From: Symbiodinium sp. CCMP2592
Lineage: Eukaryota; Sar; Dinophyceae; Suessiales; Symbiodiniaceae
DNA length: 64,000 nucleotides
Direction of reading: 5' to 3'
Assembly: GCA_905221615.1 (NCBI GenBank)
Contig: CAJNDT010000602.1
Span: forward strand, 322,986-386,985
Part shown: piece by piece, positions 2,469 through 55,912 of the stretch
Numbering within the stretch: the first letter of the stretch is position 1
Layout of the letters: each line of letters starts with the position of its first letter
Program-made: the position numbers and the translations under genes
Notes under the pieces: model-generated
The model's database searches: none
The model's input: only the letters and a program-made list of their open reading frames with translations
Told to the model about the DNA's origin: nothing

Positions 2469-2550
2469 TTGTTTTTGGTGGTTTGGGGCTTAATGACGGA
2501 ATTGAAATCCTAAATCCGACACCCTCTTTCTTTCAAGTCGCAAGTGCAGG

Positions 2551-4718
2551 ACCGTGCGAAGCGGCTCTTGCAGCAAGCAAAAGAGCAGGCCGAGGCTCTG
2601 GTTGCCAAGGCCGCAGCTGAAGCGGAGGCTCTCTTGGCCCGCGCTAAAGCTGAGAGCAACGTGGAAACCTCTCAGGAAGAGGGTCTAGACACTCAGGGCA
2701 ACGCGGAAAGCTCTCAGGCACGGACTCTGCCGGAGCGTTCTCAGGCACGGACTCTGCCGGAGCAGCCTGACGGCCAAGGAGCTGCTCTGGTTGTGTACTC
2801 TGAGGGGGAAGAAGAAACTCTTCCAGAACAGGCCCGAACTCCGGCCGTGAAGAGGCGGCTCTCCTTCGACAGTCTCTCGAGCTCTGGCTCGAAACAAAAG
2901 TCTCTGAGAAGTTTCTGGGGCTCTGCAGAAGACCGAGCCGCTCGCTCTGCCGAGTCTGTTCCTGTGAAGGCGACTCTTCGGAACAGGCACTCTGAGGCTT
3001 ACGAGCGACTGCGAGCTCTCGCTCGGGAGTACCAGGACGCTCTCTCTGACAGGGCTGAAGCTGTGGTGCAGAAGAGCTTCAACAAAGGCGGTCGGCCTCT
3101 TGGCTCTGGCACAGCTCCCTCTTCCAGCAACAGGCGAGTACGTGGCCAGGTCTCTGCAAGAAGAGAGCTGACCGCCTACGAGAAGCTGCTCCTCTGCCAG
3201 GAGGCGGGCTCTCGCTCGCCCGAAGTCTCTGAGCAGAAGCACTGGAAGCAACTCTCGGAAAAGTACGGCCTCCCTGTGCAGACTCTCAAGGAGTACTCTG
3301 GCAAGAAGGCCGTCTGGGAGGCTCTCGTGGAGAAGCACAAGCTCCACCCGAAGAGCAGAGCCTCTCGCAAGGCCAAGCGCTCTTGTCGCTACATGCGGCA
3401 AAAGGGCGGCGGTCGCAAGGCGGACTTTCCCGACCTCTTGCCCGCTCTGAAGCAGTGGCATGCGACTGAAAGGCAACACGGCCACTCTGTCTCCAAGCAG
3501 GACTTCTTTGCGGAGTACTTGACTCTCTTGGTGCAGAAAAGCCAGGCTCTGCTTCGAAAGGCCGAACTCTTGCCTCACGAAGACCCTGAGAAGCACTCTC
3601 TGCAGAAGCTGGCCAAGCTTGCTCTGGACAGGAAGCGCAAACTCTTGGCCTCAAAGAAGTACCGGCTCTCTTTGACGGACCGCCTGGTGACGGACTCTGG
3701 TGCGAAGTTCTTGGTGGCGGAGCAGGTGACGCACCTCTCTCCCACCGAGGAGAAGGTACGCTCTCAGCTGACCTTCCAGGCCTGTGATCGGGCCCTCTGG
3801 GCCATGACGTGTGCCTCTGAGGAGGCTCTGGCCTCTGAAAAGCTCGTGGCCGACCCTGCCTCTGTCCTGAACTCTCGCAAAGACTTTGTGCTCGGCATGA
3901 GCGACCAGGTGCCGCTCTGGGCCAAAGCTCAGCCGAAGAAGCTTCTCTTCAGCGAAGATGAGCTCTTGCAAGTTCATCCTGGCAGCGGAGACTCTCTTCG
4001 CCAGGAGCTTCAGGCTGCCCGAACAGCTCTGGAGGAAAGTCTGGGCGAAGACGGACCTCTCCAGGTCTTGGGAGACATGGACGAGCAGCCTTCCGACTCT
4101 AAGCTCAAGCCCGGCTCTAAGGTCAAGCGAGCACACTCTGAGGCGGACAAGTTCCGCATCACCTATGAGGCCCGGCAGAAGATCCACGGCCTCTGCGGTG
4201 ATGGCACTCCCTCTGCTGAGGTGTCCGCTGGTCTCTTGGTGTTCCCGGGGAAGCACTGCCGCCTCTCGAACTTGGACTCTGAAGGCCGGTACATCTCCAT
4301 GGAGCGGTACCGTGTGGGGAACTCTGAGGTTGTGCACCTCTCTGGCGAGAAATGCCGGTCTCTTCAGTGGGCTGTGAAACTGCGGGCTCTCTACCCGCAG
4401 GAGTTCTCTGAGATCGACATAATGCAGCAACCTGCCTCTAACATGGACGGTGTGCTCTTGAACTGGGTGGTGCAGCAGCAGGGCTCTGAAGAACCTTGCT
4501 CGCTCTACATCCGAGACTCTTTCGCGGCCATCTTCTCCTCTGAAGTCCAGCAGACTCAGCAGGTCGTGAACCAGGCCTCTGTCGAGATTCTCGGAAAGCT
4601 CACTCACTATCTCCAGGTGACGGACACCGACTTTGCTCGCTCTTTCAAGTCACTCTTCCGAGAAGCCTTGACCGAGCAACGGACCCTCTGGAGAGAGAAG
4701 AACAAGGGTCTCTTCCAG
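2551..4718 (+). CDS. Exon 1: pogo/Tc5-like DDE transposase core
   Basis: The exon begins with an Ala/Lys/Glu coiled coil (first ~40 codons). Numbering codons from 2544, a pipsqueak-type HTH lies at ~208-262, a Tc5/CENP-B-type HTH at ~285-335 (GRKADFPDLLPALKQW), and a DDE_1-like core follows. Its candidate acidic residues are D454 (GMSDQVPLW), D658 (LYIRDSF) and D694/D696 (QVTDTDFARSFK); the third is followed by the usual Lys-rich helix. This matches the pogo/Tigger order, although the family is distant. There is no upstream ATG: the frame is open only back to 2514. A pyrimidine-rich tract ending GTGCAG|GAC at 2550 looks like an acceptor, so a first exon or a trans-splice site is probably missing. 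It splices in frame to 4787. The sequence is packed with CTCT on this strand in all codon phases. Confidence 0.7.
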
Positions 4719-4786
4719 GCCGCTCTTACTTAGGACCTAATAATAAACTAAATGAAAACAATTGGAATCTCTCCCTTCGCTGGCAG
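4719..4786 (+). other. Intron, GC-AG, 68 bp
   Basis: The upstream frame runs to a stop in this interval, and the downstream frame has no ATG at its left edge. Joining after CTCTTCCAG (4718) and before GTGACTTAC (4787) keeps the frame and gives a continuous helical protein. The donor is GC and the acceptor is CAG|G. A CAGG direct repeat spans both junctions. These are the non-canonical dinoflagellate rules. Confidence 0.65.
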
Positions 4787-14688: not shown

Positions 14689-14696
14689 AATTTTTA
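14689..14696. repeat. Target-site duplication, left (AATTTTTA)
   Basis: Identical to 21854-21861 at the other end of the element. An 8-bp duplication is what KDZ/Zisupton-type transposases are reported to make. Confidence 0.85.
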
Positions 14697-14732
14697 GAGA
14701 CTGGTACGCCGTGGCGGCGCGTATTTTCGAGG
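14697..14732 (+). repeat. Left terminal inverted repeat of KDZ element
   Basis: It begins GAGACTGGTACGCCGTGGCG and ends TTTTCGAGG. Its mismatches to the right end are positions 1, 4, 5, 15, 24 and 27. Confidence 0.85.
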
Positions 14733-15126
14733 AATTCAGTGTTTTTCCTCGAGTTTTTTACTATAGAAATGGCTTCATCATACTCCCCAGAATACACTAG
14801 CAAACATTTGCATGACGTCTTAACGCAGTATTATTCTCAACAGCTGAACTGACGCCCGCACAAGCAGCACGCTGAGGATCCGACCTTGGCGGAGATAACT
14901 ACTTAGTAACTACTTTAATCCTGTTATTCTCATAGCCCACCAAGGGCGCGGAGACAGCAATTCTCAGTTTGCACAGAGTTATCAGCTGCTTCGCTCACTC
15001 TTCTTCTTTGGTCACCCCTCGGACTTGTCGCAGCAAGAGACAGTCGACTAGAAGTCAAAATTTGTACACGTATGTCAGGCTTCTTTCTTCGATGAAGCAA
15101 ACTGGCATGTTGTCGGATAGAGCTTC

Positions 15127-18100
15127 CTACTTCGAGGACGCTGGACGCTTCGCCATGCAGGCTGCTGGCCTCCGCAAGCAAACCTTTGCAGTTGGACGAC
15201 GGAAAACTTTCGAGGCGAATGATTTGCTGCAACTGTACGGCTGAGAACGGCGGCGCTTACGGCCTGAACTGAATGGGCTGAGGTGACTCACACTGTTCTT
15301 GCGGATCAACTCGTTATGCTTCTGCACGTAGAAGAGAACATAGAAGAAATGCGTCTGCGGAGACATGGTATTGAATGTTCTGGCATAATTGCGAAACCAA
15401 GCGAAGGTTTGCTCAGCCACAGAGGTATTCACCTCTCTCAATCTCTTGTCCAACTTTTTGTGCACCAAGGGCGAGCACGGACAAGTTGTACCATGACCAT
15501 GTGCGTGGAACTTATCGACGCAGAAATACTTAATGTCCCGGAGCATGTCCGACCTTCGCACTGCTTGCAAAGCGCAGCACATGCGGTCATAGATGATACA
15601 ATCCAAGACAGGAAGAATTTCAGCCGCATCTTCAAGCATCCTAACTGCCAGGTCATTGTTCTCAGGGTGGATCATCTCCTGCACACCAACGATGAGGCCG
15701 GACTCTGGATGAATAGCCATAAACCACCCATTTGTGCGCTTTTTGACTGTGCCGTCCTTCCGTGGCCGTCCGCCATGGGCAGGAGTAATAGTAGAACACC
15801 TGGATGAAACCTTTTCATGGCCATCGATCACGAGCTCGTACATAGACTTACTCTCCTTAACAGTAATCTCATTGGATTGGAACCACTTGTGATATTCCTG
15901 CACGAAGTTGTCAGCAAGCGGCTTCTCCAAACAGATCGACAGGAGTTTCTTGTCGGTGTCCTGGTCCGACAAGTCGCACCACATGAGCTCGCCGACCTGT
16001 AGGACATTGAGATACAACTGTGCGGTAGAGTATTCTAGCCGCCATCGAGCATGCTCATTTTCGTCTTTCCACATGACTTCCTTTTGCGCAAAGTTGATAG
16101 CATGGACACTGATATGCCCACGAAACTGCAGCATGCCATGATAATCCAGGAAAGATCGAGTGAAGACCGTCTTGGGATTCACGAAAACAAATTCCAGATC
16201 ACTTGCATGAGAGCTGTTGATCTTGTTGCCGTCCACCCAACGGTAGTTGTAGTGGTGCAATGTTGCACAATTGCGATTGGAGCATTTCTTTGTCAAATGT
16301 TCCACATGATGTACCCCGTCGAGAGCATATAAGCGTGCTTCGATCACACGCTCTTTCCGAATAGAGGCACCACACTCCAAGCACGTCTGCAGGGGTGAGG
16401 ATAGCACCAGTCTATCTGGACAGTGTACATCCACTTTCATTGTGATTGAGGCTTGCGACGCAGGTCGTTTGCAAGGTCCTGATCCACGAAGGTCATAGGC
16501 TGCGTGATGATCCAGAGCAACATCGTGGGTAAGCGTCTGAAGACGAAACCAAGACAGATTCTCCATGGAGGACACAATCTGAGACAGGATCTGGAAGGTG
16601 GTGTGCAAATGACGCCCGCTAGACTCAGAATCCACGACACATACTGTCGAGTCGCCCAGGAATCGGATGCCACTCCAATGTCCACCACCTGGAGCTGCTT
16701 GATGGACAATGAGGTTACCGTTGAGGGTATTCACCTCGCTCAGATCCACTTCCTCCATGTAGATCATGCGGTATGCGTCTTGCGGAGCGCGCTGCGAACT
16801 GTACCTCATGTGCTCGTTGAATTCCCTAGCGGAGATATCACCTTCATCTTCCGTAACCTCCAAGAGGTCAGTGTCGCAGTCAGGCTGGAGCACAGCAATC
16901 ACGTAGTGCAAGCAAGACGAGGTTGGCCCTTGCAAGTTAGCCCGGCAGATACTCCAAAGTCCAAGATCCTTGCGAATCAACAGCCTTGCTATGCTTGACA
17001 GCTCCGTGCCGGAAGGCCACGACTTGATGGCCATGGGAATCACACTCGCTTCACATGCCCGACACGCTTCGACGACATCCAACTCTGCAGCAAGACTGTC
17101 GCATTCAACATAGCACCCATCGAAGAGCAGCATTTGCACAGAGTCTCCCATGTGCTCTGACATGATGTGCATGAGCTTCGCCTCCTCAAAAGACAGCAGA
17201 GCTGAGAGCCGACTGAACTCTGGATTAGGACGATCTTCATAAAGATCAGCGAATACTCTGGCAGTCGGCATCTTCAGTAACAGCATAGCGGCACGCTGTA
17301 CCTCGTCACAAAGCTTGAGCAAATATGGGATTTCAACCGAAGGCCGGCCACCGTAGAAAATGCGAATAAGCTCTACCTTCGCTTCCTCAACGGTACACTC
17401 CGAATACTGTGCCAGAGATTCTCTCCACTGTTTGTAGAACTGCACGACCTTGTTCAGCATGGGGAACTTGTCCTCATCCCAAAGTGCAGATTCGCGCAGC
17501 TTCGAAACTAATAGACGAGGATGGCACGAAGGAGCGTCGACTTCGGCGCAGTGAGAGCCGAAGGCAATGAACCTTGCTTCACGCGTGAGCTTTTGACCAG
17601 AAGGTCCTCGCGACAACAAGCGTCCATAATGAGGTCGTCTGTAGTAGGCGATGTCAATGCTGGAGAAGTCTCCATTAACCAATCCGTCTCGACGATGCCG
17701 AGCAATGTAAGCTTCCAGGAGATCTGGACGACGATCATTGCCAGCTTGCGCGTAGGCGATGAGCGCAGTCAAATTCACTTTCTCCTGCAAGCGGAGTTCA
17801 CTATTACGCCCGAGCGCACTGAGATCTTCGACGATAGTTTTGTTTTGTCGGATAATTTGTGCGTCATGGTGGAAGGCTGCCCCTGTCCACTTCTCCTGCG
17901 TGTGCAGCAAGTCAAAGGGATCGCCCCATTCCGTCCAGGACCCGTACTTGTCGATGCCGCCGTGATTGTCCATGGCCACCTGTAGTTTTGTCCAATCCAG
18001 AAGGAGCTTGTGGAAACAACCATGATCCACTTGCTTCAAGAGGATCACGTCAGCGTTGTCCACGGCCTCGATAAGATAAAAAAGTTTAGTCCGCTTTCCT

Positions 18101-20154
18101 TTCGACGAGTATATGGCTCCTGGCAAAGCCTCAATCTTGTGGATGAGGTACTCCTTCAACACTCTTTTCCAGGGCGTCTGCGAATGAGCAGCAATGACTA
18201 GTCTATTGAACTCATTCACATCATCCGTCTCGTCTCCAGGAGGCGGAGCATTGCCGCCCGCAAGGCGTGAAGCTAGCCACTTGGTATCACGAACAAGATC
18301 GGCATGAACACCGGCGAGGTCGTTGATCATTCTCAAAGACTCTGCTAACGACGTTTCCTGGAAGAACGGAATGCAGTATTCCCGTAGGAACAGGGCGGCC
18401 GTTATCTCATGTGATAGGAAAGCAGATAGTTCGTCCTGTGGAATCAACAGGAAGACGCCGTTGTCTGTGTCCACCTCATTGACATCACTGACGAGTTTCC
18501 CCTTCCCCATGCGAAGACACACGATACGTCTCTCCAGCTGCTGGCAGCATTTGTTGCGATCGCGAGCTTCCTCAATTGTGGGTATGTTGTCATAATTTAA
18601 CTCCTGCACCTTCAAGCTCTCACCAAATTTGCGCTTAGTGGTGAAGCCGTAGTTGACCCGACAGTCGATGTCTTCGTCAACTACGAATCGCTTCCATAGG
18701 TCGGCATGGAAGGAAGACTTATGATCCATCTCTTGGATGCGAACATTGGCCATGTTCCATGCCAACTCCGCAGATTTGCGGAATTCCGACCGGTCCAAGA
18801 AGACCCCACAATCCAATGTGGAGGAAGCAAGGTCCCCGAACAAGGTGCGATCCAATATTGCCTCCATTCCTTTACCATCGCCACCTTTGCCGATCTGGAA
18901 GATCATTTTGGAAGTGCATACTCGCTTGAAGGCTGCGTGGAGGAAGCACAACTTGATTTGGAATCCATGTTCGTTCTTGTAATACAGAGACTCGAGGAAG
19001 AGACGAAGCCTGATACGGAAGTTGTTGACATCAATGTTGGGGTTCTGTGCGATCACATGTTCATACAGGTAGCGGTAGTTCAGTTTCAAGTAGCAATTCC
19101 GATCACGTGCTTTCGGAGCCACATCCCAATTCTCGTCGAGGTACACGTCCGTGAAACAGACGCCTGTCGATCTAGGCATAGGTGTATCCCACTCCAAGAG
19201 AAACAACTTTGTTAGAGGCTTTGAGGAGATTTCGCTTTCCCAGGTCTTCCGATATTGAGCGAGCATATCGGCGACACGGCGAGACCATTTGGCATGCCAC
19301 GCCTTGTTTCCTGTAGCTTTGCGAAGATGATCACTGTTAGCCTTGGCGACGCCACATAGCTCTTTAATCACATCCACGGACTGTTGAAGAAGATGTCGAA
19401 TCACATTGAGCACTTCGGCGCCGGCGGCTTCCCAACTCCATTGGGACTCTCGCTCTGCCGCCGCCAAGTCCAGAGAGACTTGAACAAACAAGCCCTCCAA
19501 GGCCATCAGCAAATCCCATGCATCGATGGACAAGTTCTCACAGCGAACCCAAGCACCGTCCTCGTACCGAAAAGCTTGTCGACAATGAGCCCTCCAGTTA
19601 TGGCCATCAATCAACATAGCCAACATAAGCTTCTGTTTGTTAGACATGCAATAGTTTGCGGCATCCATGTCACAGATGTAGTTGGCAATGGACACGAGTT
19701 TGCAGGTCTCCGGTGCGAAGTCCGGAAAGGAGTTACGACCCCACTGCATGTAGTGCTCGTACATGGCTGGCATTGTGATCGCGTTCGGGTTGACGGGTGC
19801 CGGCGCCAAGATGTGTGGGGCAGGAGGGTCGATCTCCAAATCAGAGAAGGCGCGAAACCTCATCATGACACAAAGTAAGAAGTACACAGATATATGCTCG
19901 GACCTGCATAACATTGCATGGGATATCTGCGTCTGAGACCCCAACAGATTTGCACCTCTGAGACGTTTCGCTGGACGAGGTGAAGGAGAAGACCCCGCCA
20001 TGTGAGGATACTCCTCCTGCATGAGATGTTCCAACTGACTCTCCAAAGAATTGGACATGTCAGCACTGACGACAAGGGGCGCGCGAATGAAGTTGTAGCT
20101 TGAAAGCTCGAGAAATGCTGAGGCATTAACAGACAACAAGGATGGAATGTCCAT
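15127..20154 (-). CDS. Helicase-polymerase-protease-like-KDZ transposase polyprotein (1675 aa)
   Basis: A true ATG at 20152-20154 opens an uninterrupted frame. Residues ~400-560 form an SF3 (D5-like) helicase: Walker A GKGGDGKG (422-429), Walker B RIQEMD (472-477), motif C LNYDNIP (519-525) and arginines 542/543. Residues ~840-1020 resemble a family-A-like polymerase palm: GRLLSRGPSGQ (844-854), motif A EVDAPSCHP with D873, K926/YGG (934-936), and FDG with D1012. Residues ~1078-1180 have papain/Josephin order C1081, H1159-W, D1175. Residues ~1240-1620 are a KDZ transposase: Cys cluster 1258/1261/1291/1296, D1444 (VIDGH), D1523 (IYDRMC), the Cys/His stretch 1545-1560, and the hallmark NTSVAEQTF with E1581. 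A basic tail follows. The protein would act in the nucleus on the element's own ends. Transposase assignment is firm, helicase good, polymerase and protease moderate. It has no introns, unlike nearby host genes. Confidence 0.88.
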   Translation of the reverse strand: MDIPSLLSVNASAFLELSSYNFIRAPLVVSADMSNSLESQLEHLMQEEYPHMAGSSPSPRPAKRLRGANLLGSQTQISHAMLCRSEHISVYFLLCVMMRFRAFSDLEIDPPAPHILAPAPVNPNAITMPAMYEHYMQWGRNSFPDFAPETCKLVSIANYICDMDAANYCMSNKQKLMLAMLIDGHNWRAHCRQAFRYEDGAWVRCENLSIDAWDLLMALEGLFVQVSLDLAAAERESQWSWEAAGAEVLNVIRHLLQQSVDVIKELCGVAKANSDHLRKATGNKAWHAKWSRRVADMLAQYRKTWESEISSKPLTKLFLLEWDTPMPRSTGVCFTDVYLDENWDVAPKARDRNCYLKLNYRYLYEHVIAQNPNIDVNNFRIRLRLFLESLYYKNEHGFQIKLCFLHAAFKRVCTSKMIFQIGKGGDGKGMEAILDRTLFGDLASSTLDCGVFLDRSEFRKSAELAWNMANVRIQEMDHKSSFHADLWKRFVVDEDIDCRVNYGFTTKRKFGESLKVQELNYDNIPTIEEARDRNKCCQQLERRIVCLRMGKGKLVSDVNEVDTDNGVFLLIPQDELSAFLSHEITAALFLREYCIPFFQETSLAESLRMINDLAGVHADLVRDTKWLASRLAGGNAPPPGDETDDVNEFNRLVIAAHSQTPWKRVLKEYLIHKIEALPGAIYSSKGKRTKLFYLIEAVDNADVILLKQVDHGCFHKLLLDWTKLQVAMDNHGGIDKYGSWTEWGDPFDLLHTQEKWTGAAFHHDAQIIRQNKTIVEDLSALGRNSELRLQEKVNLTALIAYAQAGNDRRPDLLEAYIARHRRDGLVNGDFSSIDIAYYRRPHYGRLLSRGPSGQKLTREARFIAFGSHCAEVDAPSCHPRLLVSKLRESALWDEDKFPMLNKVVQFYKQWRESLAQYSECTVEEAKVELIRIFYGGRPSVEIPYLLKLCDEVQRAAMLLLKMPTARVFADLYEDRPNPEFSRLSALLSFEEAKLMHIMSEHMGDSVQMLLFDGCYVECDSLAAELDVVEACRACEASVIPMAIKSWPSGTELSSIARLLIRKDLGLWSICRANLQGPTSSCLHYVIAVLQPDCDTDLLEVTEDEGDISAREFNEHMRYSSQRAPQDAYRMIYMEEVDLSEVNTLNGNLIVHQAAPGGGHWSGIRFLGDSTVCVVDSESSGRHLHTTFQILSQIVSSMENLSWFRLQTLTHDVALDHHAAYDLRGSGPCKRPASQASITMKVDVHCPDRLVLSSPLQTCLECGASIRKERVIEARLYALDGVHHVEHLTKKCSNRNCATLHHYNYRWVDGNKINSSHASDLEFVFVNPKTVFTRSFLDYHGMLQFRGHISVHAINFAQKEVMWKDENEHARWRLEYSTAQLYLNVLQVGELMWCDLSDQDTDKKLLSICLEKPLADNFVQEYHKWFQSNEITVKESKSMYELVIDGHEKVSSRCSTITPAHGGRPRKDGTVKKRTNGWFMAIHPESGLIVGVQEMIHPENNDLAVRMLEDAAEILPVLDCIIYDRMCCALQAVRRSDMLRDIKYFCVDKFHAHGHGTTCPCSPLVHKKLDKRLREVNTSVAEQTFAWFRNYARTFNTMSPQTHFFYVLFYVQKHNELIRKNSVSHLSPFSSGRKRRRSQPYSCSKSFASKVFRRPTAKVCLRRPAACMAKRPASSK

Positions 20155-20456
20155 GCATAGGCTACGATACTACACGGACATGCCAGGTCGTTGGTATGCG
20201 ACAAGAGACTGAGCTGAGTCGAAGACAAATAGACGGATGATCAGGAAGAAGATGGATGACCTTCCAGTAGCAAGAAAAGCATGATGCAGAAGGGCATCCT
20301 TCGTGAAGAATTACCTTCCTGTGAGAAAAAGACGTGCATATGTACAATGCCGTATTAGAGCCTTCCTATTGCTGCTGTACATCCTCTTCCTCATCGTGAG
20401 CCCTGTACCTTGTCTCTATTGTTCCCTCAGTTCCTATTCTCTTGTTTCGTGTCTGT

Positions 20457-20598
20457 CCCCTTCGCCCCTTGTCCCCTTTGTCCCCCTTTGTCCCCCTCTG
20501 TCCCCCTTTGTCCCCCTTTGTCCCCCTTTGTCCCCCTTTGTCCCCTTTGTCCTCTTCTGTTCCCCGTCTGTCCCCCTTTGTCCCTCTCTGTCCCCTGT
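20457..20598 (-). repeat. G-rich 10-bp minisatellite, predicted G-quadruplex array
   Basis: On the plus strand TCCCCCTTTG repeats about 12 times with minor variants; on the minus strand this reads GGGGGACAAA, giving many G5 runs 5 bases apart. It lies about 300 bp upstream of the transposase ATG, inside the element and on its sense strand. It could influence transcription or replication of the element, which is inference. Confidence 0.85.
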
Positions 20599-20730
20599 CC
20601 TTGGCTTCTGTCTCTCCTCGGCTTTGTAAACTAGAACATGTAACAGTAATGTACACATCGTCATACGCCTAGATTGCCGTCACAGTGCATACTGACCGAC
20701 AGATTTTTCTGTCTTTGCTCGCAAGCGTAA

Positions 20731-21270
20731 CTAGTTGCAGCCATCATTATATGCACTCAACTCGGCCTCATCCCACATGAGACCAGGAGGCGGAAAAGTT
20801 GACTCGGGAAAGGCTACTGCGCTGCAGCGGCTGCGCTTCCAGTTTGGCTCTTCTCCTTTGGAGAACCAACTGTGCTGAGACCAAAAAGTATTCGACCAGG
20901 ATTCGTTGCGTCCTTTAGACGACCAACGCCCCCCGCTCCAATACTTGGTCTTGGCGACACGCGCGGCGATTTCCTCTCTCTCGGCTTTACGTGCTCTCTT
21001 TCTTGCAGCTTTCTCACTCTCCAGCCGCAACCGTTCTACACGAGTGCGCTCCAACTCGAGCTCCGTAGCTGTGAAACTTTTCCGTGGAGTCGACGGTTTA
21101 TTAGACGGACGGGATGCCTTTGATGAAGTAGGCCGCGTTCGGCTAGGGAGAGATGTCGGCTGCCTATGCGGTGACTGTGGCTTCGGAGACTCACTGGACT
21201 TCGGCTTCGGCGGGCAGGTGCAGCGATCCCGCCCCCACTTCTGACATCCAGAGCATTTCGTACGAACCAT
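20731..21270 (-). CDS. Small Cys-rich, basic protein of KDZ element
   Basis: The first ATG in this frame is at 21268-21270 and gives about 179 aa; the frame is open further upstream but lacks ATG. The N-terminus has MVRTKCSGCQKWGRDRCTC (Cys-x2-Cys-x6-Cys-x-Cys), which may bind zinc. A Pro/Ser/Arg-rich segment follows, then a charged helix rich in Glu/Arg/Ala (about residues 85-125) and a Trp/Ser-rich tail. It is upstream of the transposase ORF on the same strand. No family was recognised; a DNA- or protein-binding accessory role is only a guess. It could alternatively be an upstream exon of the transposase. Confidence 0.45.
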   Translation of the reverse strand: MVRTKCSGCQKWGRDRCTCPPKPKSSESPKPQSPHRQPTSLPSRTRPTSSKASRPSNKPSTPRKSFTATELELERTRVERLRLESEKAARKRARKAEREEIAARVAKTKYWSGGRWSSKGRNESWSNTFWSQHSWFSKGEEPNWKRSRCSAVAFPESTFPPPGLMWDEAELSAYNDGCN

Positions 21271-21484
21271 GGCGCGCGCGTGAGATAGGAACTCGATGGA
21301 TAATAGGAAATTCTGCGGCAAATATGTGTAAGCTTACGGTAAGTGCAGTACATATACGGATAAAAAAGCCAAGCACCGCCAACGCTGAAGTTGAGGTCGC
21401 GACCTGAAACGCTATTATTTAGGGTATATGTGAGGATACAACAGCTCGGATACAAGGATTTGCCGGGCATGACAGGGGTTTCTT

Positions 21485-21592
21485 GGGGGGGGGGGGGGGG
21501 GGGCGCCAAAAAAAAAAAAAAAAAAAAAAAATTAAGGATATGCTTTATTATTTTTTTTTTTTTTTTTTTTTTTTCCCCCCCCCCCCCCCCCC
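21485..21592. repeat. Homopolymer inverted repeat G19-A24 / T24-C18
   Basis: G19 (21485-21503), CGCC, A24 (21508-21531), a 19-base spacer, T24 (21551-21574), then C18 (21575-21592). The two halves are nearly perfect complements and would form a hairpin or cruciform of more than 40 bp. It lies about 260 bp inside the right end of the KDZ element. Exact run lengths may be affected by sequencing. Confidence 0.85.
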
Positions 21593-21817
21593 ACCAGGGG
21601 CCCTTCTAGCTCGGCCTGAGCAGCCGTACATGGAGTATTATATTGTAACTTCGTACTGCAGCAAACACGTAGCTCACAAGATAGAAACGCTCATACGAAA
21701 GACATACCTACAGGCATACAGTAGAGAATAACATTGCCAGCACAACGAAAGGCCTACCTAGAAGCATGCAATGGAGAAGAACAAAGTCAACATCCTGAAA
21801 ACGACTGAAACCTGCAA

Positions 21818-21853
21818 CCTCGAAAACACACGCCGCCAGGGCGTACCATACTG
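21818..21853 (-). repeat. Right terminal inverted repeat of KDZ element
   Basis: Read on the minus strand it starts CAGTATGGTACGCCCTGGCG and ends TTTTCGAGG, pairing with 14697-14732. Confidence 0.85.
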
Positions 21854-21861
21854 AATTTTTA
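21854..21861. repeat. Target-site duplication, right (AATTTTTA)
   Basis: Exact copy of 14689-14696. Confidence 0.85.
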
Positions 21862-47795: not shown

Positions 47796-50700
47796 TCAGT
47801 CACTCTCCTCGCTAAGCAAAGCATGGAAAGGATCGCCTTCAGCATCCTGTTCCTCGGCAGCATCTTGACGATGAGCAGCCCATTCGCATAATACCCGCAC
47901 AAAGTAGCGCTGCAAAGCTTGGATTTGACCATCCGTGAAGCCGCAGTTAAGCGTGATTACGCCAGTCTGTCGCATGCACTGAGGCAGGCAGCCGGGAAGA
48001 GCTGCAGCAGGAACTCCTCCTGGAACCATGGCGGCCGTCCAAGCAACTGCCAGCTCTCGTCGCGCAGCGTCGTTGGCGCCGCAGGACCATAAGAAGTGAT
48101 CGGTGTGTTCGTCGTCGAGGCCACAGCGCCGGCAGCGCGCGTCAGCCACCTTAGATGCTTTGAACAGACGGTGTCTGCTCCACAGCGCGTCCGCGAGGAA
48201 GCGGGCGTAGCGAGCACCTAAGTCAGAGCCGTCCCACCCGAAGGTACGACGGCGGCATCCCAGCTCGATCAACGGCTGCAAGGTACGCCGTCTGTCGATT
48301 CCTGAAGACAAGCCCTCATGACAAATTCTACTGCCATCCCAGTGCTTCCACCACCACGAGCGCAGCTCACAGCGAAGCACATGCTTTGCCTTCTGTCCTT
48401 CCCGATCTTTGCGTGCAAGATCAGTCAACCTAATCGCACAATCCTCTCGAGGACAAACATGCTCCCAATCAGGCCAGGTCCAGCCCAAAACCTTCAACGA
48501 CCGACGAACCAACCTAGCAAATCCGACAACCGTACCTCGAAGCCTAGAGCAGGCCCGCCAGAGAACTCTGACGACTGGCTGACTGCGCAGAGAGAGACGC
48601 GCAAGCGCAACAACTGCAGAGTAACACTGAATCATGCTGGGATCCATGCGATGCAAGGGGGCCAGAAGGCCCAATGTCAAAGCTGTGCTTCTCATGTAAT
48701 TATGAGGGTGCAGGGTCGGTCCCCACCAAGCTTGAACGACGGCCGTCCTGAGCTTATCGATGACCAGCTGAGACACAGGAGTGCCTTCAGCATACAGACC
48801 TTGCAAGTATGCTGCAAGCAGACCTCTCCGTGTCTCCCGATTAGGGAGGAGGCGAGCACGCAGTACCTTGGAGCGTACCACAGAGGCTCTGTGATCACCC
48901 AGCGTGCAGTCAGCGCCAGATGCTGTCTCGAGCATGACACCGAGGTACTTGACAGACTCCTTAAGTGGAAGTCGACGCCACTCAGCAGCTGAAACATCAT
49001 CTTGAGCAGGCCCCACAAAGAATCTGCAAGATTTCAAGGGATGGATGCTCAACCCAAAAGCAGCATCGAAGACCCTCGTGGCCCGAAGCGCCGAGGCCAG
49101 CACGTCAACATCCTTGTTTAAGAGACATCTGTCGTCTAAGAAAACACGAAGCAAATCAAGCTTGGGAAGGCTCCAAACCCAAGCAGCCATCACGAGGTTG
49201 AGGGCCCACGGGGCAAGAGGGTCCCCCTGAGGAAGTCCCCTCTGCTCCGCTGCTTTGATGGTCACGCCGGTGGGCCCATCGCAGAGCCAAACATGTCTCG
49301 TCAAGCTTTCCCAAATGCTCACGACGTTGAACATGCAAATCGGGGCGCCCGCATGCCGCAGGAGAGCCTTGAGACTGTGCAGGCTCACGGTGTCGAAGCA
49401 CTTAATCGTGTCAAGACAAGCGCCAGCCAGAAAAGCATCATCGAAATGCGAGGCGGCAAGCCAGGAGGAAACCTCGTTCCCCGTATCCACAGCAGACGGA
49501 GCGCCATTGCGACCGCCGACAAGTTCATCCGGAAACCAGGAGCACCACTCGCCGAAGTGCTTCGCAGTTCGAGCCGCCCACATTCTGTAAACAGTATGCA
49601 AAATAGACAAAGGCCGTGCCGACCCATCATCCTTCGGGATACAAACCAGACGAGCGTTGCTCCACGAAGCTGGAAAGGGAAGCCCCTTGTCAAAAGCATT
49701 GAACAAGTCAACAAGCCGTTGAAGATGCTCATCTTCCAGATCGCCGATGTGTTGGAAAGAAATCCCATCAAGACCAGCCGCCGTGGAACGAACCTGAGCT
49801 CGAATGTCCTGAATGGTCCACTCCGGAAGGCCCGGAAAGGGCGTAGCCTTGGAAGCCACAACCTCACTGAAGGTCTGAGCCGCCAGAACCTGTTTCCGAA
49901 CCTGAGCAGGACAAGCCTCAGTCCAAAACGGCAACCACTCTCTCCTGACTGCGCAGCCTTGTTCAGTCGGTGTGAGAGCAGGCTTTCCGTCCGCCCTCAG
50001 CAAAGCTAAGGGTTTGGTGGGCCCCTGCTTAACCCATTTGGACGCCTGAGAAACGTCTCGCATTCGGATCTTCCATGCCGCGATGGCACTGCGCCGGCGA
50101 TCGTTGAGAGAATTCCTCAGCTCCACCTCGGTGGCTTCATACTGAGCATGCTTCCGGGGGGTCCATCCCGTGACAGAGGCCTCAGCAGACAGGCGCCTCA
50201 ATCTATTCATGAGGCCCAAAACAGCGTCCGTGTCCTTAGCAACGACCGCTCCCTTGGCGGTTCTGTAAGGAGTCTCTTGTCCCGTCAAACCGAGAGCACA
50301 GCCAAGCCAAGTACTCCATGCTGTTTGCGAGTCGTTGCGCGCAATGGCATCGTGAAAAGCGGCATCATCTTGGGCAGACCAAGGTCGGGACACTGGCCTC
50401 GGTAGAGCCCAGGCAATGCGGTCCTCCGCATGAAGCTTGCCAGGGACATCACAGATGAGTGGTGCGTGCTGCGTAGTAACCTCGTTATGAAGACCAACGA
50501 CGTTGGCAGGCTTGAGGCTCCCACACCCAACAAACCCGTCAATGGGATGACACCAGGAGTGTTTGACAGAGCTACGCCAAGTACCAAGCATGGTATGACC
50601 AAAATGGCCAGAGCAAGGATGAATCTCAAGAAGATCGGTATTAAAATCCCCCCCAGAAAACCAAACTCCCGGCTTGTCTTGCCACATGGCCAGTTCCCCA

Positions 50701-51113
50701 AAGAAGGCTTCCTGCGTACCTCGCTTCTTAATGGGGGCATACACGCTCGCAACTCTAGCAAGATCACCCCCGGCAAGCCTGAGGGCGACAGAACAGATTT
50801 GTTGAGAGTCCTGAAGCGAGCCAGCTGAATACCGGCGATGGACTAAGATCATTTCACCATACCCGCAAGCCCGAGGGGGGCCCCAGAAAGCTTGCCATCC
50901 AGCAGACCTAAGGTCCCTGGCAGTTCTTGCTTGTGCTGCAGCTTTCACACGATGTTCCTGCAAAAGACACACATCCACGTCATATTTGTTCAGAAGCTGA
51001 AGAAGTAAATCCTTTTGGGTGTTGAGGCTCCCAAGATTCCACGAAAAGAAGCGAATGCTGTGAGGGCCCGGGTTGGACGCCTCACCCAAACGACATTCGT
51101 GGGTCCAAGCCAT
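47796..51113 (-). CDS. Retrotransposon ORF2: AP-endonuclease + reverse transcriptase (1105 aa)
   Basis: ATG at 51111-51113. Residues ~18-220 are an exonuclease-endonuclease-phosphatase domain: N26 (SWNLGS), E53 (QEHR), GGDFN with D156/N158, D192 and H216. The usual SDH motif reads TQH here, so the Asp next to the catalytic His is missing. Residues ~430-730 are reverse transcriptase: LVCIPKDDGSARPLSI, motif A with D568 (LDTIKCFD), motif B RGLPQGDPLAPW (625-636), motif C FLDD (D660/D661), and motif D near 690. Near the C-terminus CRRCG...H...C is the LINE-type knuckle. The N-terminus contains LGEASNPGP (residues 9-17), reminiscent of 2A-type NPGP but with the Glu one place early. The enzyme nicks target DNA and copies the element RNA there. 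Confidence 0.92.
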   Translation of the reverse strand: MAWTHECRLGEASNPGPHSIRFFSWNLGSLNTQKDLLLQLLNKYDVDVCLLQEHRVKAAAQARTARDLRSAGWQAFWGPPRACGYGEMILVHRRYSAGSLQDSQQICSVALRLAGGDLARVASVYAPIKKRGTQEAFFGELAMWQDKPGVWFSGGDFNTDLLEIHPCSGHFGHTMLGTWRSSVKHSWCHPIDGFVGCGSLKPANVVGLHNEVTTQHAPLICDVPGKLHAEDRIAWALPRPVSRPWSAQDDAAFHDAIARNDSQTAWSTWLGCALGLTGQETPYRTAKGAVVAKDTDAVLGLMNRLRRLSAEASVTGWTPRKHAQYEATEVELRNSLNDRRRSAIAAWKIRMRDVSQASKWVKQGPTKPLALLRADGKPALTPTEQGCAVRREWLPFWTEACPAQVRKQVLAAQTFSEVVASKATPFPGLPEWTIQDIRAQVRSTAAGLDGISFQHIGDLEDEHLQRLVDLFNAFDKGLPFPASWSNARLVCIPKDDGSARPLSILHTVYRMWAARTAKHFGEWCSWFPDELVGGRNGAPSAVDTGNEVSSWLAASHFDDAFLAGACLDTIKCFDTVSLHSLKALLRHAGAPICMFNVVSIWESLTRHVWLCDGPTGVTIKAAEQRGLPQGDPLAPWALNLVMAAWVWSLPKLDLLRVFLDDRCLLNKDVDVLASALRATRVFDAAFGLSIHPLKSCRFFVGPAQDDVSAAEWRRLPLKESVKYLGVMLETASGADCTLGDHRASVVRSKVLRARLLPNRETRRGLLAAYLQGLYAEGTPVSQLVIDKLRTAVVQAWWGPTLHPHNYMRSTALTLGLLAPLHRMDPSMIQCYSAVVALARLSLRSQPVVRVLWRACSRLRGTVVGFARLVRRSLKVLGWTWPDWEHVCPREDCAIRLTDLARKDREGQKAKHVLRCELRSWWWKHWDGSRICHEGLSSGIDRRRTLQPLIELGCRRRTFGWDGSDLGARYARFLADALWSRHRLFKASKVADARCRRCGLDDEHTDHFLWSCGANDAARRELAVAWTAAMVPGGVPAAALPGCLPQCMRQTGVITLNCGFTDGQIQALQRYFVRVLCEWAAHRQDAAEEQDAEGDPFHALLSEESD

Positions 51114-51146
51114 CCACGCAACAACAGCCTGGACCCCGTATCTTCA
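51114..51146 (-). other. ORF1-ORF2 junction: single in-frame TGA
   Basis: ORF1 ends CTG TGA (stop at 51144-51146). The next ten codons are open and lead, in the same frame, to the ORF2 ATG. Read-through of one UGA would therefore give a single ORF1-ORF2 polyprotein with the LGEASNPGP motif at the joint. Confidence 0.85.
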
Positions 51147-54100
51147 CAGCTTACACAAGCGCTTCTGACGGGCAGCGGGCTTTTTAAGGACTCTGGCCAA
51201 CTTACGAGCAGATCCCTTGCTACCCCCAAGCGTGCACTGCTCACGACAAGCCTTCTTGTGGAAGTCACTGGCCGCTTGACTACGAACCTTCTTACTGGGT
51301 TTCGGCGCATCCCCCAAACCCGCCTGCGATTGCGGGCAGATGTTACGCATAAGTTCAGAAGCAGAATTTTCATGGCCGCATCTCGTGCACCTACACCACC
51401 GCGACACTCCGCCGAGACCTTTGCGGGAGCCTTTTACCTCAGAGCGTCCTGGCCACGAAGACGGCCGCACTTCTTTAAGCTCAACATCGTGAGCCCATGA
51501 AAGGCCAGCAGTCCTGAACAGGGAAAGCTTGCGAGCCAGGACCTGAGTGGCAACTTGGTTCCTTAGCGGGACTTGGTTACCGGCCAGAGCAGCCGGTCTA
51601 CGAACGTAAGGTTCCATGCAGTGAATGCACTCTCCCCAATGTTTACGGCGCTGGACACCTGGCATGGGATCCTCTGGGTAGCGTGCCGCAGGCACCCTCC
51701 ATCCGCACTGACACTGGTTGGTCGTTTTAAGGCCCGCGCCATCAAGGGCCTCAGAGGAAACAGCTCCCAGGACCACCTGTGCTTGCTTGGCCTGTCTTAG
51801 AAGCGCGTCAGGAGCTCGTTTTCCTACAATTCTGCGCGACCCTTCCGAATGCCCATCGTGTGGGGGCGCAGGGCGAAGCCACAAAGAGGTCTCTGAAGCG
51901 GCATTTTCAAAAGGAAGGGCATTGGACTTTTCCGCTTCCATTCCCGTAGTAGGAAAAACCCCAGTTTTCCCGCATCTAAACTCCTCAAAGGACCCTTCTA
52001 CATGCCCATCTTCCGAGAGCACTGGGCGGAGCTCCGCAGAAGAGCCACCAGCAACGGCCCTCTCTGGGGAATGATCAGGGGCCTTGGATGAGGCAGCCGA
52101 GCGCGCATCAACAACAGGCCTGAGCCACAGTGAACTCTCTGAACCAGCACGTGAGGCAGAACCCCGCGAGGACTTACGGCCTCCGCCCAAGTAGCTTTGG
52201 GAGGCCGCAGGCCGGTTGTCGTCAAGACCAAGCTTGGCCCACTTGGCAGGCGGAGAAACTTCGGGGTGCAGCGTGTAGAAGTGTTGGTCCTTCAGGAAAA
52301 GGAACAAAGGGTTGCTGTTGGTCTTGTGTCTCGGCACAACTCTTTCGATAAATTTCCATTTCTTTTGAACATGCTTAAACACCAGGACCTCAACCTGCAG
52401 AACATGTGCGGCGGCCATCGTCATCCATGGGTCAAGCCATTTGGCGGGGCGCCGGCAAGCCTCGAGGTATTGGGAAGCATCCTGAGGGAGTGAGCCTCCT
52501 TCCGTTTCCTCCGTACAGTCAGCATCAGGATACCACTCAAGCACCCAAGCACCCTGATTACTGTCGAGCCAATCAGCAGCCCGCGTTCTGAGAGAAAGCG
52601 CCACTTTTGCAATCTTGGGTTCCAACTTTGCCACCGTCGCTCCCTGTCTGAGGGCGTTGCTTGCAGCTAAACAGCGAAAGCCGCAATCTCCGAATCCTCC
52701 CAAATCCCACATCTTAACATCATCAGGGCCTGAAGAGCCGGACTCCTGGGGCGAGATGGACGAGTCAACACGCTGAGCTTTTTGGGGTTTGTTGGGCGAG
52801 GAAACACCGGTGCGATCATGCTTCTCTCCACGCTTGTCATCATGCTGCTCATCACGCTTGTCATTCATGTCAATTTCAACGGAATCACTGGGCAGGGAGC
52901 CATCAATTTGGGTGGGGGCGACATGGCCATCGAACCCTTCACCGTGGGAGTTCTCAGTCACTTCCGCGATTTTCGCGGCTTCCTTGGGGGGGTCCTTAAC
53001 CCGACTCACCCAGGCAGCCGGAGCCCGGATGGGCTGGGAGATGATTCTGGTAGTATTCTTGAACCAAGGTGAAATCTCAATCGTACCCTGGTCCCCACAC
53101 TTCAGGAACCATTGACCACTCGGTTGTGCCTGAGGCGGTGCAGCGCTGAACGTCCACACACCTTTTGGCTTAGCCGGCGCTTGAATGCCAGAGATAACTC
53201 TCCAGTGCTGAGATTCCAGGAGTTGCTTTAGCTGAGCCGGAAACCAAGTGGACGGAACCCCTTTTGCAGCCCAGCGACGTTTGACAGAGGCCTCAGAATC
53301 ATTCTCCCCAGGGGAGACACCGATAAGGCCCAGGCACGATCCACCCCCTGCCCTGTAGGCAAGAGGGACCTTAGCTTTATCAGCTTCTCGCTTCGCCATA
53401 GCGTAGTACGCCGGAGCTTTCATCTTGTCAACGGGAAGCCACTTGACAAAGGCCCGCCCACTAGGGTCAGACTGGTTGTCGACTCTCTTGACAAAAACTC
53501 CCTTAGCGCCCGAGTTCCCAAGAACAAGCAAACTGGAAGCTTCGGGAAGTTTGAGGAAGCCACTAATAGCCTCGTCACGCTGCTCGGTTTTATGCCATCC
53601 AAAACTACGCACCGCAAGGTCATCAGGAAGGATCGCTCTCACCGCCGACGCAGGTTTCCTAACGGTTTCATCCCAATCAAATGACGTTTGAAATGCTTTC
53701 GGGATGGTGACCTTGAGAGTGGCTTGCTTGACCTGTTCAGGCACACTTTTGCACTCAACAACAGCAGGTTGGTGACCCCACGAAGGGAGCTCGTCGGACA
53801 GGGCAACGACCCATGCTTCCTTCCATTTACCATCAACAAGACGGATCCACGACTTGGTAGCTTTGAAGCCCTCTGGCCCCTTGCTTTCCTGGTGATCCTT
53901 GAGGATCAAAGCAACTTTGCTCTTGAGCCCGTGCGCCGCAGCCAAGCCACGAGAGGCCTTAGCCTGCTCTAAAGTCACGACAGCAGCAGCGTTGTCGCCT
54001 GGCTCCTCTCCGTCCTCAAGGTCTTTGTCGAGAGCTGAGGCAGAACAAAGCTTACCAGGCCACCACTTCGGATCTACAGCCCAGGACTGAGGAGCTTGAG

Positions 54101-55912
54101 CGCTCTTTTCAAACGTCCTTTTCCCCTTGCTTGCAACGGGGCTAGACCAAGCAGCCGCGGGTGTTCGAGGCTGAGGCTGAGCTTTAGGAGCCGGCGCAGG
54201 GCTCTGGACCAGAGCCTTCAAGCTGCTGAGAAGACCCTGAGTGCCCTTTGTTTCACACTGCAGCACTAACGCCTTAAGTTGCGCTAGCAGGGTAGCTTCT
54301 GAGGCACAGGCAGGCGACAGCGGTCGGGCGTTTGGCGGCTCGAAAGACACTCGGCGAGGAGGGTCAGCACCGTCATTTGGTGCATCGCTTAAGCCTTTGC
54401 CTTTCCCGCCTTTAGCCTTGGGCCCCTTCTTACCCTTACCTTTAACTTGCCACCCGGGACTCGGGCTGCGGCTCGCACTAGCACAATGGCCGGGCGACAC
54501 CTTTCGGGGTGTGGGACTGCGGCCTCTCGGTTGAGCCGGCGACTGTGGTCTGGCCTCTGCAGGATCCTCATCCTCGGAAAGTGAAGCCAGCAAAGCTTGC
54601 AAGCCAAGAAGCAGTTTCTGCTCCTGTCGTTGCCTCTTAGAGGCCGCAGCTCCAGCGCCTCCGCCACCACCGTGCCAGTGTGTCTTAGGGCACCAGCCGA
54701 GCAACGAAGCTTCTGGAAAGGCCTCTTGCTTCTGAGGCGTGGCTGCGGCGGCAGGTTCGTCTGAGGCAGAGACGACTGAGGCCACAGCAGCTTGCCCGGA
54801 GGACCGAGGACCATCACTGTCGTCAAACACTCTTGCATGAGGCATGAACCACAAGCATCTACGACAACGAGAAAACATGCAGGCTTTCCAAATGACATGA
54901 ACTGACCGTTCAGGGCAACGACGTATCAGACGGAAAACTTGGGCACGTATGCGGGTGCTCACACGTGGTGGTTTGCAACGGACCTGATGTCCGCCTCCGA
55001 CCCCGTACTTTCTCGCGGATTGGATCCAAGTTCCTTCCGGGGGTTGCTGGGGGTTCGAAGGGCGTTTCTTTCGCCTGTGCTGCGCGCGCTTGCGCTTTGT
55101 CAAGTCGATTTTTCCTCTGAGGCGTCGAATGACATCTTGCGAGGAGTTAACAAGGAGATCACCAGACTTGGTTCTCTTTCTGGTCTTGCGTTTTTGCCTT
55201 TTCCAGGCCCGCTGAACCGCTTCATACACCCCACGAAGGACGACAGAAGCAGCAACAAGGAAAGCCACCGCGAGGTAACACTTCCCAAACCGAGGTCCCC
55301 ACTCCCGTGTCGAGAGAGCAGCGAAGAACTCGAAAGCCAGAGGAAACTCGTATTCCGAGACGTTGAAACCGCGGGGAGGCCCATGTGCCCATACAGGAAG
55401 CATGAGAGAGCCGCCCACTTTAAGAGTGCAGAAGTCACACGTGGGTAAGCCCACATCAAAGACTGGAACGTGGCAGAAGTGTGGCACTGTTGTGGGTAAG
55501 CCTACAGCACAACCAAACATCTGCAAGTGAGGCTCTGAAGCAAAGGCCTCAGTGAAGTTGACGCCCAAGCCGCGCCAATCACACAGGCGGGCGCCAGTGT
55601 CGTAGCCATGCTGTGCGCTGCCATGTTCGAGGCAGCCATACTCCGCGCAAGCATTGCTGAAGGATGCTTGTGATCCATTTCTTTCTACCGTGCAGCCCCA
55701 AGGGCAGTAATTTAGTGCCTCCAAGCGGCTGGTGGGACTCGACGACAAAACCCCCCCCGAAACGGAAACCGGAAGAACCGCAACCAACACCCACCCAAAC
55801 CAGCTAAACCAAGGAGAGCACCTCAGTGCGCAGTGCCGACGCGCCGATCGGTCTTTCGGGCTGAAAGCCTCTTGAGGGCTTGTTAGCTCTTGATCATTTC
55901 TTTTGTCAGTCA
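51144..55912 (-). CDS. Retrotransposon ORF1: membrane-like N-terminus, basic linker, OTU protease, Cys motifs
   Basis: The frame is open from the element's 5' end (and by chance back through NRT2 exon 4 to 56177), so the start is unclear; the first in-frame ATG is at 55518-55520. In order: a hydrophobic segment (55814-55751, FGWVLVAVLPVSVSGG); a Cys-rich stretch with NGS, NFT and NVS sequons; a second hydrophobic segment (about 55280-55227) followed by a Lys/Arg run; an Arg/Ser/Pro- and Lys/Gly-rich region; an OTU-type protease with GDCGFRC (about 52684, catalytic Asp-x-Cys-like) and DQHFYTLHP (about 52275, His); and two Cys clusters (CQCGW...HWGECIHC near 51700 and CRCTRCG near 51390). It probably binds RNA; OTU domains occur in some LINE ORFs. 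The membrane-like module is unexpected. Confidence 0.8.

Follow-up and report, generated by a model that had tools for sequence, protein, structure and literature searches.

The window analysed here, a 64,000-nucleotide stretch of contig CAJNDT010000602.1 from the coral-symbiont dinoflagellate Symbiodinium sp. CCMP2592, contains an intact-looking, recently mobile DNA transposon of the KDZ superfamily, the features of which are collected in Table 1. Its main gene encodes a 1675-residue protein, termed P0001. A preliminary description of this DNA had proposed the ends of the element, an 8-bp target site duplication (TSD) and an open reading frame (ORF), and direct reading bore out their exact coordinates, with the left end GAGACTGGTACGCC starting at 14697 and the right end GGCGTACCATACTG running up to 21853. 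The protein motifs were also found, namely GKGGDGKG (422), RIQEMD (472-477), LNYDNIP (519-525), EVDAPSCHP (871), YGG (934), FDG (1011) and the triad C1081/H1159/D1175. The observation of element, ORF and motifs is therefore confirmed with corrections: the claim of a single ORF was wrong in detail, as there is a second gene of 179 amino acids (aa) and a probable intron in the main gene. Residues about 70-99 of P0001 are probably an in-frame GT-AG intron near the gene start, because the coding stretches flanking it sit in different frames in the loci L022/L024 and because KRLRGRDLFRAFSD is continuous across it in the Cladocopium gene model P0019.

Table 1. Features of the transposon and its insertion site (TIR, terminal inverted repeat; positions are those of the window).
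Feature	Position	Strand	Details
Whole element, KDZ-type DNA transposon	14697..21853		7157 bp; from right-end matches, locus flanks and TIR
Left 8-bp TSD	14689..14696	+	AATTTTTA
Right 8-bp TSD	21854..21861	+	AATTTTTA
Left TIR arm	14702..14732	+	31 nt, 90% complementary; outermost 5 nt of the element GAGAC, unlike the right end
Right TIR arm	21818..21848	-	outermost 5 nt TACTG
Main gene, P0001, 1675-aa ORF	15127..20154	-	D5N/SF3 helicase, family-A polymerase, Josephin-like protease, Cys cluster, KDZ transposase
Probable in-frame GT-AG intron, inferred	19859..19945	-	87 nt; from L022/L024 frames and P0019 model
D5N + SF3-type helicase region	17995..19857	-	residues 100-720, limits approximate
Walker A GKGGDGKG	18868..18891	-	residues 422-429; S/T position is G; K428 28/28, G429 28/28
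Family-A polymerase core	16966..17802	-	residues 785-1063; palm D873, D1012; finger K926/Y934/G935
Josephin-like cysteine protease	16480..16965	-	residues 1064-1225; C1081, H1159, D1175
Cys cluster CxxC ... CxxxxC	16264..16386	-	residues about 1257-1297; motif positions only
KDZ transposase	15235..16257	-	residues about 1300-1640; D1444, D1523, E1581
Second gene, 179 aa	20731..21270	-	C-x2-C-x7-C-x-C at start, then Lys/Arg-rich; homologues in L019 and L022/L024 (start only)
TGTCC(C/T)n minisatellite	20470..20596	.	unit about 10 bp; between the two genes
Subterminal hairpin G(n)CGCCA(n)-loop-T(n)C(n)	21482..21597	.	from DNA fold

A search of the own genome (1.1 Gb, 5383 contigs) with the last 257 bp of the element gave 48 first-look candidates, of which 40 were scored, and all 40 matches extend to the last base of the right end. 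The outer flanks differ among the 30 right-end loci that were fetched, except for three flank-sharing pairs (L034/L036, L039/L040 and L049/L054). Both ends were readable at 11 distinct sites: the window copy (L001), L002 (=L010), L003 (its right flank is common to L026/L034), L004, L005, L006, L007, L008 (=L009), C5198 (L021/L030), C3513 (L025/L041) and C192 (L028/L042). Nine of these sites have a perfect 8-bp TSD, each of a different sequence (AATTTTTA, TACGATTA, TGTCAATA, AAAGAAAA, AATCCTTA, TATTGAAA, AAGAATAT, ACTATATT and GAAAAATA); the two sites without one are L005 and L028. Six further full-length copies, L002-L007, were listed at 97-100% identity, and three of them (L004, L006 and L007) carry one or two stops in the main ORF. 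Leaving gaps uncounted, 7-18 mismatches per ~6800 bp separate the copies L001-L005 from each other, and 35-56 were counted for pairs involving L006 or L007. We therefore regard the element as a recently mobile transposon, given its distinct, site-specific TSDs and the few mismatches between copies. Among the short non-autonomous copies (17 loci of L043-L059), a candidate left end was seen in L045 and L056 only, in neither case with a matching TSD. The right end of L047 consists of tandem termini, GGCGTACCATACTG followed by GATGTACCATACTG, ahead of the flank.

A protein search with P0001 yielded 28 homologues (E 0 to 4e-165). Those that are named belong to Symbiodinium, Cladocopium goreaui and Polarella glacialis, and three of the 28 bear the UniRef name 'SF3 helicase domain-containing'. 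P0005 is 100% identical to P0001, and the others are 31-63% identical in the alignment. Residue counts given here refer to the 28 proteins of alignment A1, which holds P0001 and 27 of the 28 homologues (P0005 left out). One homologue, the metagenomic protein P0032 (1578 aa, 32%), has a long N-terminal extension that looks protease-like by eye. A search with a profile of the core only, which scored just the 7993 best candidates, found 39 proteins. Of these, 38 reached E <=1.3e-78, among them P0043, a partial protein of Prorocentrum cordatum, and the remaining one is the distant P0054 at 9e-22. Both searches admit certain lengths only, so that small separate genes might escape. The preliminary description had considered that the helicase and polymerase part might be a separate gene fused here by chance, and this is mostly contradicted by full-length fusions at 39-52% identity in Symbiodinium and Polarella and by the joining of polymerase, protease and KDZ in the distant relative P0055.

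P0001 had one match in Pfam, KDZ (PF18758), while the PHROGs and NCBIfam libraries gave nothing useful for it, and no relevant match came from searching the PDB sequences with P0001, A2 and A3. The helicase, polymerase and protease calls thus rest on predicted structure and motifs; sparse match coverage over parts of the predicted models was not used as evidence. All four domain calls of the preliminary description are backed by structure prediction together with conserved catalytic residues, and according to these models P0001 is a single conserved fusion of four predicted folds: a helicase, a family-A polymerase, a cysteine protease and a DDE transposase. That the motifs exceed chance follows from the conservation of the key residues counted, which occur in 26-28 of the 28 aligned proteins when gaps are disregarded, and from purifying selection, which the informative pairs show. 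Selection was assessed by the Nei-Gojobori method for 16 pairs, the majority of which were too close or saturated. The ratio of nonsynonymous to synonymous substitution rates (dN/dS) between L014 and L027 was 0.30 for the helicase, 0.21 for the polymerase, 0.15 for the protease and 0.35 for the KDZ part, and between the window element and L023 dN was 0.197 (helicase) and 0.248 (polymerase) at saturated dS. Ratios near 1 rest on few changes and carry little weight (window versus L006, protease, 0.88 on 4 changes; L022 versus L024). Apparent partial frameshifts were seen in L007 (KDZ) and in L028/L029.

The N-terminal part of P0001 combines a D5N domain with the AAA+ fold of superfamily 3 (SF3)/D5 helicases, and its Walker B residues Q474/E475 (26/26 non-gap rows) and motif C residues N520/N523 (27/27) are conserved. 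It is followed by a predicted family-A palm at residues 785-1063 with a predicted local distance difference test (pLDDT) score mostly near 90, and the palm fold, which had been set beforehand as a test, is thereby borne out. Both palm aspartates, D873 and D1012, are present in 28 of 28 proteins, in agreement with the two-aspartate palm of TV-Pol, the finger residues K926 and Y934 in 28 and 27 of 28; the two aspartates and the finger lysine are likewise conserved in TV-Pol (PMC2579912). R845 (27/28) and R849 (26/28) are candidates for the template-contacting arginine of the beta-hairpin, judged from the alignment.

Among the best 50 matches per search, the strong structural matches of the polymerase are with enzymes that make DNA, namely the Taq, Bst and T7 DNA polymerases and Pol theta. 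This finding, and the fusion with a helicase, which points to DNA replication, argue against an RNA polymerase or primase that serves only element transcripts or primers. We consider such a role improbable, although the fold is common to family-A DNA polymerases and T7-type RNA polymerases, the residue counts do not separate the use of deoxyribonucleotides from that of ribonucleotides, and TV-Pols are predicted to act both as primases and as polymerases (PMC2579912).

The protease region matches Josephin-2 (6pgv_A) in Foldseek (prob 1.00, E 0.025, root-mean-square deviation (rmsd) 9.6 over 154 columns, template modelling score to target 0.52). It has the Cys-His-Asp/Asn triad in a predicted Josephin (C86) fold, with C1081 and H1159 each in 27/27 non-gap rows and D1175 in 27/28. 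The C-terminal part has the RNase H-fold DDE triad of the KDZ superfamily (non-gap rows: D1444 21/21, D1523 17/18, E1581 11/14), and the element resembles KDZ transposons in this domain with its DDE residues as well as in its 8-bp TSD and TIRs. A precomputed KDZ label is attached to three of the 28 homologues (P0011, P0012 and P0017) and to three core-profile matches (P0037, P0046 and P0051).

Distant relatives show that the parts of P0001 occur in other combinations. P0054 (25% identical) has the polymerase, then a weak C2H2 match and a different, DDE-like C-terminal part; in profile comparison this protein matched neither KDZ nor, to a usable degree, the protease. Its C-terminal part resembles stand-alone ORFs of 447-553 aa in the genome (4 matches), including a 553-aa DDE-like ORF without Pfam match in L060 (G000:C346:15600-17300), and from its sequence we read it as a putative unrelated transposase. 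P0055 unites polymerase, protease (hhalign E 2e-4, probability 46%) and KDZ (E 3e-4, 39%), figures that are modest because they come from single pairs against family profiles. P0056 combines helicase (E 1e-7, probability 94%) and polymerase, as P0057 appears to do, and their Walker A motif reads GKGGNSKG or GSGGNSKG. These architectures suggest that the replicase is an old module that has been paired with different transposases.

Among viruses, the best structural matches are proteins of a virophage and of giant viruses, which would fit a capsid-less derivative of a virophage or polinton-like virus that uses KDZ as integrase and spreads with the help of a virus. However, besides the main gene there is no ORF >200 aa in the element, viral contig scans with P0001, A2, P0054, P0056 and P0055 and phage-record searches with P0054 and P0056 gave no relatives, and the element sits with TSDs at nine chromosomal sites. 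Such an origin is therefore highly unlikely. Prokaryote contigs searched with A2 gave no relatives either.

The second gene is present in those near-identical copies for which the upstream part was covered. It has a homologue in L019 (33% over 209 columns, E 2e-15, start and stop matching), where the main protein is 48% identical to P0001; in L022/L024 only the first ~32 residues match, with a stop soon afterwards. There was no significant Pfam match, and the product is a candidate DNA-binding partner. A minisatellite of similar unit lies on the opposite strand in five loci of other families (L014, L015, L018, L019 and L027), and none was found in a scan of L022, L023 and L024.

The subterminal hairpin has a DNA folding energy of -49.5 kcal/mol (z -5.35 versus 200 shuffles), and an Rfam search gave nothing at gathering score. 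Its pattern was matched 35 times at about 23 distinct places in 363 kb, always inside elements of this type; as the scanned sequence consists mostly of element loci, its absence elsewhere rests on the window and the flanks. It lies 241-297 bp from the right end wherever a locus includes that end. The pattern is present in 21 of the 30 right-end loci L030-L059 and missing from L041, L042, L044-L047, L051, L052 and L056, of which L041 and L042 have decayed versions and L051 a shorter one. The loops differ between families, so that the structure and not the sequence is kept. The homopolymer tracts by the right end are hard to sequence and might raise the suspicion of an assembly artefact or a chance fusion, but the same fusion on many contigs and in other genera and the recurrence of the hairpin at a similar place in other families leave this explanation with hardly any probability.

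A genome scan for right-end|left-end junctions (spacers 0-30, no mismatch) found exactly one with zero spacer, and none with a reversed-pattern control. At this locus (L061, G000:C4919:121350-122550), a right-end piece is joined directly to an internally deleted copy of ~360 bp, in which about 22 bp come from the left end and the remainder, with the hairpin kept, from the right end. L005 and L028, the two sites that lack a TSD, begin on their left side with CATACTG|GAGACTGG, a 15-nt partial form of this junction that is cut 7-8 bases into the right end. The junctions of L061, L005 and L028 would be expected from circles or head-to-tail concatemers. A footprint at L005 and L028 was rejected, since the right end comes first and the left end second, and C4985, a palindrome-like match of a looser junction pattern, was not counted, as the outer 5 nt of both ends are absent.

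The zero-spacer junctions of L061, L005 and L028 suggest that ends are joined off the chromosome, and ring helicases of the D5 type work as replicative machines. Both points speak against a purely local role of helicase and polymerase, in which they help with end unwinding and with gap or strand repair at excision or integration while the host replisome copies the element. We rate this explanation as the less probable one but take it seriously, since ordinary cut-and-paste by KDZ elements also leaves 8-bp TSDs (Zisupton has 8 bp; PMC12730594) and the evidence for a replicating episome is indirect.

Copying by the element's own replication enzymes is what we infer as the likeliest reading. The element is probably a KDZ transposon with its own replication module, in effect self-synthesizing, which works in a Polinton-like manner with a KDZ transposase and a virophage-type replicase. 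The KDZ domain would excise the element and paste it in, and the excised element would be kept as a circle or head-to-tail form with its ends abutted. The D5-like helicase would unwind it, and the TV-Pol-like polymerase would prime and copy it, perhaps from the subterminal hairpin, while the Josephin-like protease would cleave the polyprotein into its working parts. More tentatively, and with somewhat less than even confidence, we propose a new class of self-replicating eukaryotic transposon that is characterized by circle excision, episomal replication from a hairpin origin, maturation of replisome and transposase from one polyprotein by a Josephin-type protease, reinsertion with an 8-bp TSD, and a replicase cassette exchangeable among protist transposons.

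Several observations weigh against our main reading. The Walker A motif lacks the GK[S/T] ending, with G for S/T in 28/28, and residues 444-518 are predicted at pLDDT <50, so that ATPase activity of the helicase is not assured. The helicase precedes the polymerase, the reverse of the TV-Pol order in Sputnik, in which the polymerase is N-terminal to the D5 helicase, and the arginine of the RxxxK finger motif is missing, with no R in 28 proteins at position 922 (V14 L7 I3 M2 T1 K1); in these two points and in its Walker A without S/T, P0001 differs from TV-Pol (PMC2579912). The Josephin-2 match is modest in both E-value and rmsd, and the protease evolves fast, with a between-family dN of 0.78-1.06 versus 0.36-0.58 for the other domains. 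The KDZ match of P0001 (E 1.5e-5) lies just below the cut-off, with 25.3 against 26.6 bits; P0017 is also below it (26.3) and P0011 above (29.5 bits), and the domain was accepted as KDZ. Position D1444 is a gap in seven of 28 proteins, which comprise short models, explicable by truncation, an ORF break or a separate gene, and the distant P0032, which has the helicase, polymerase and protease parts and no KDZ match. Finally, the evidence for circles or concatemers comes from three junction loci, which may also stem from later tandem duplication.

The KDZ group is known to include large transposases and accessory genes (PMC12730594, PMC12477816) as well as large elements and Cys clusters (PMC12477816, PMC12062965); SAP-type additions are named in the preliminary description only. 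Unlike the accessories described in the parts of the sources available to us, i.e. TET/JBP dioxygenases (PMC12730594), F-box domains and Cys clusters (PMC12730594, PMC12062965), P0001 holds a helicase, a polymerase and a protease, and we found no literature on a KDZ element with these three, most subscription journals and Repbase being outside the search. Like Polintons/Mavericks, the element encodes a DNA polymerase, a cysteine protease and a DDE integrase. Polintons have a protein-primed family-B polymerase, a retroviral-type integrase, an Ulp1-type protease, a packaging ATPase and capsid genes (PMC11071308), whereas the polymerase region matched family A here and was combined with a KDZ transposase, a Josephin-like protease and an 8-bp TSD. 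No candidate for capsid or packaging genes was found among frames >200 aa in the 7157 bp or, by Pfam, in the second gene, the shorter, mostly antisense frames not being scanned.

As in the TV-Pol/PolA-S3H proteins of Sputnik/Zamilon virophages, some polinton-like viruses and bacterial mobile elements, a minimal family-A polymerase and a D5-type SF3 helicase share one protein, but P0001 is also joined to a protease and a transposase and comes from a dinoflagellate host. TV-Pol was defined by Iyer et al. 2008, who described its D5 helicase fusions in mobile elements, predicted that these prime and replicate the elements, and proposed replicative transposons in bacteria (PMC2579912). PolA-S3H fusions are known from virophages and polinton-like viruses, where a protease domain is thought to process the polymerase polypeptide (PMC11071308). 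The protease of P0001 resembles the Josephin deubiquitinases (Josephin-2, BpJOS) in fold and Cys-His-Asp order and differs from them in its place within a transposon polyprotein, where it may process the protein itself.

The general view is that cut-and-paste transposons of eukaryotes need the host to replicate them, with the virus-like Polintons as the main exception. If our reading is true, self-synthesis would have arisen along a second, independent route in a non-viral element that fuses its own family-A replicase with a cut-and-paste transposase, and this might help to explain the transposon load of large dinoflagellate genomes. The element is also relevant to the proposed origin of virophages from mobile elements that carry a polymerase (PMC2579912), a proposal that a recently-active-looking element renders testable.

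Outside the transposon, the window contains a 729-aa open frame with a GTG start on the plus strand (2544-4733), whose best Pfam match, DUF2293 (E 0.014), is below the cut-off. A tandem array with a unit of 4.65 kb occupies positions 32668-57539, with stretches in 3-4 copies that are mostly 97-100% identical, one being 75%. Ahead of its last unit the array is interrupted by ~8.3 kb with an element of the long interspersed nuclear element (LINE) type, the ORFs of which lie on the minus strand at 47796-51113 (endonuclease/reverse transcriptase) and 51144-56177.

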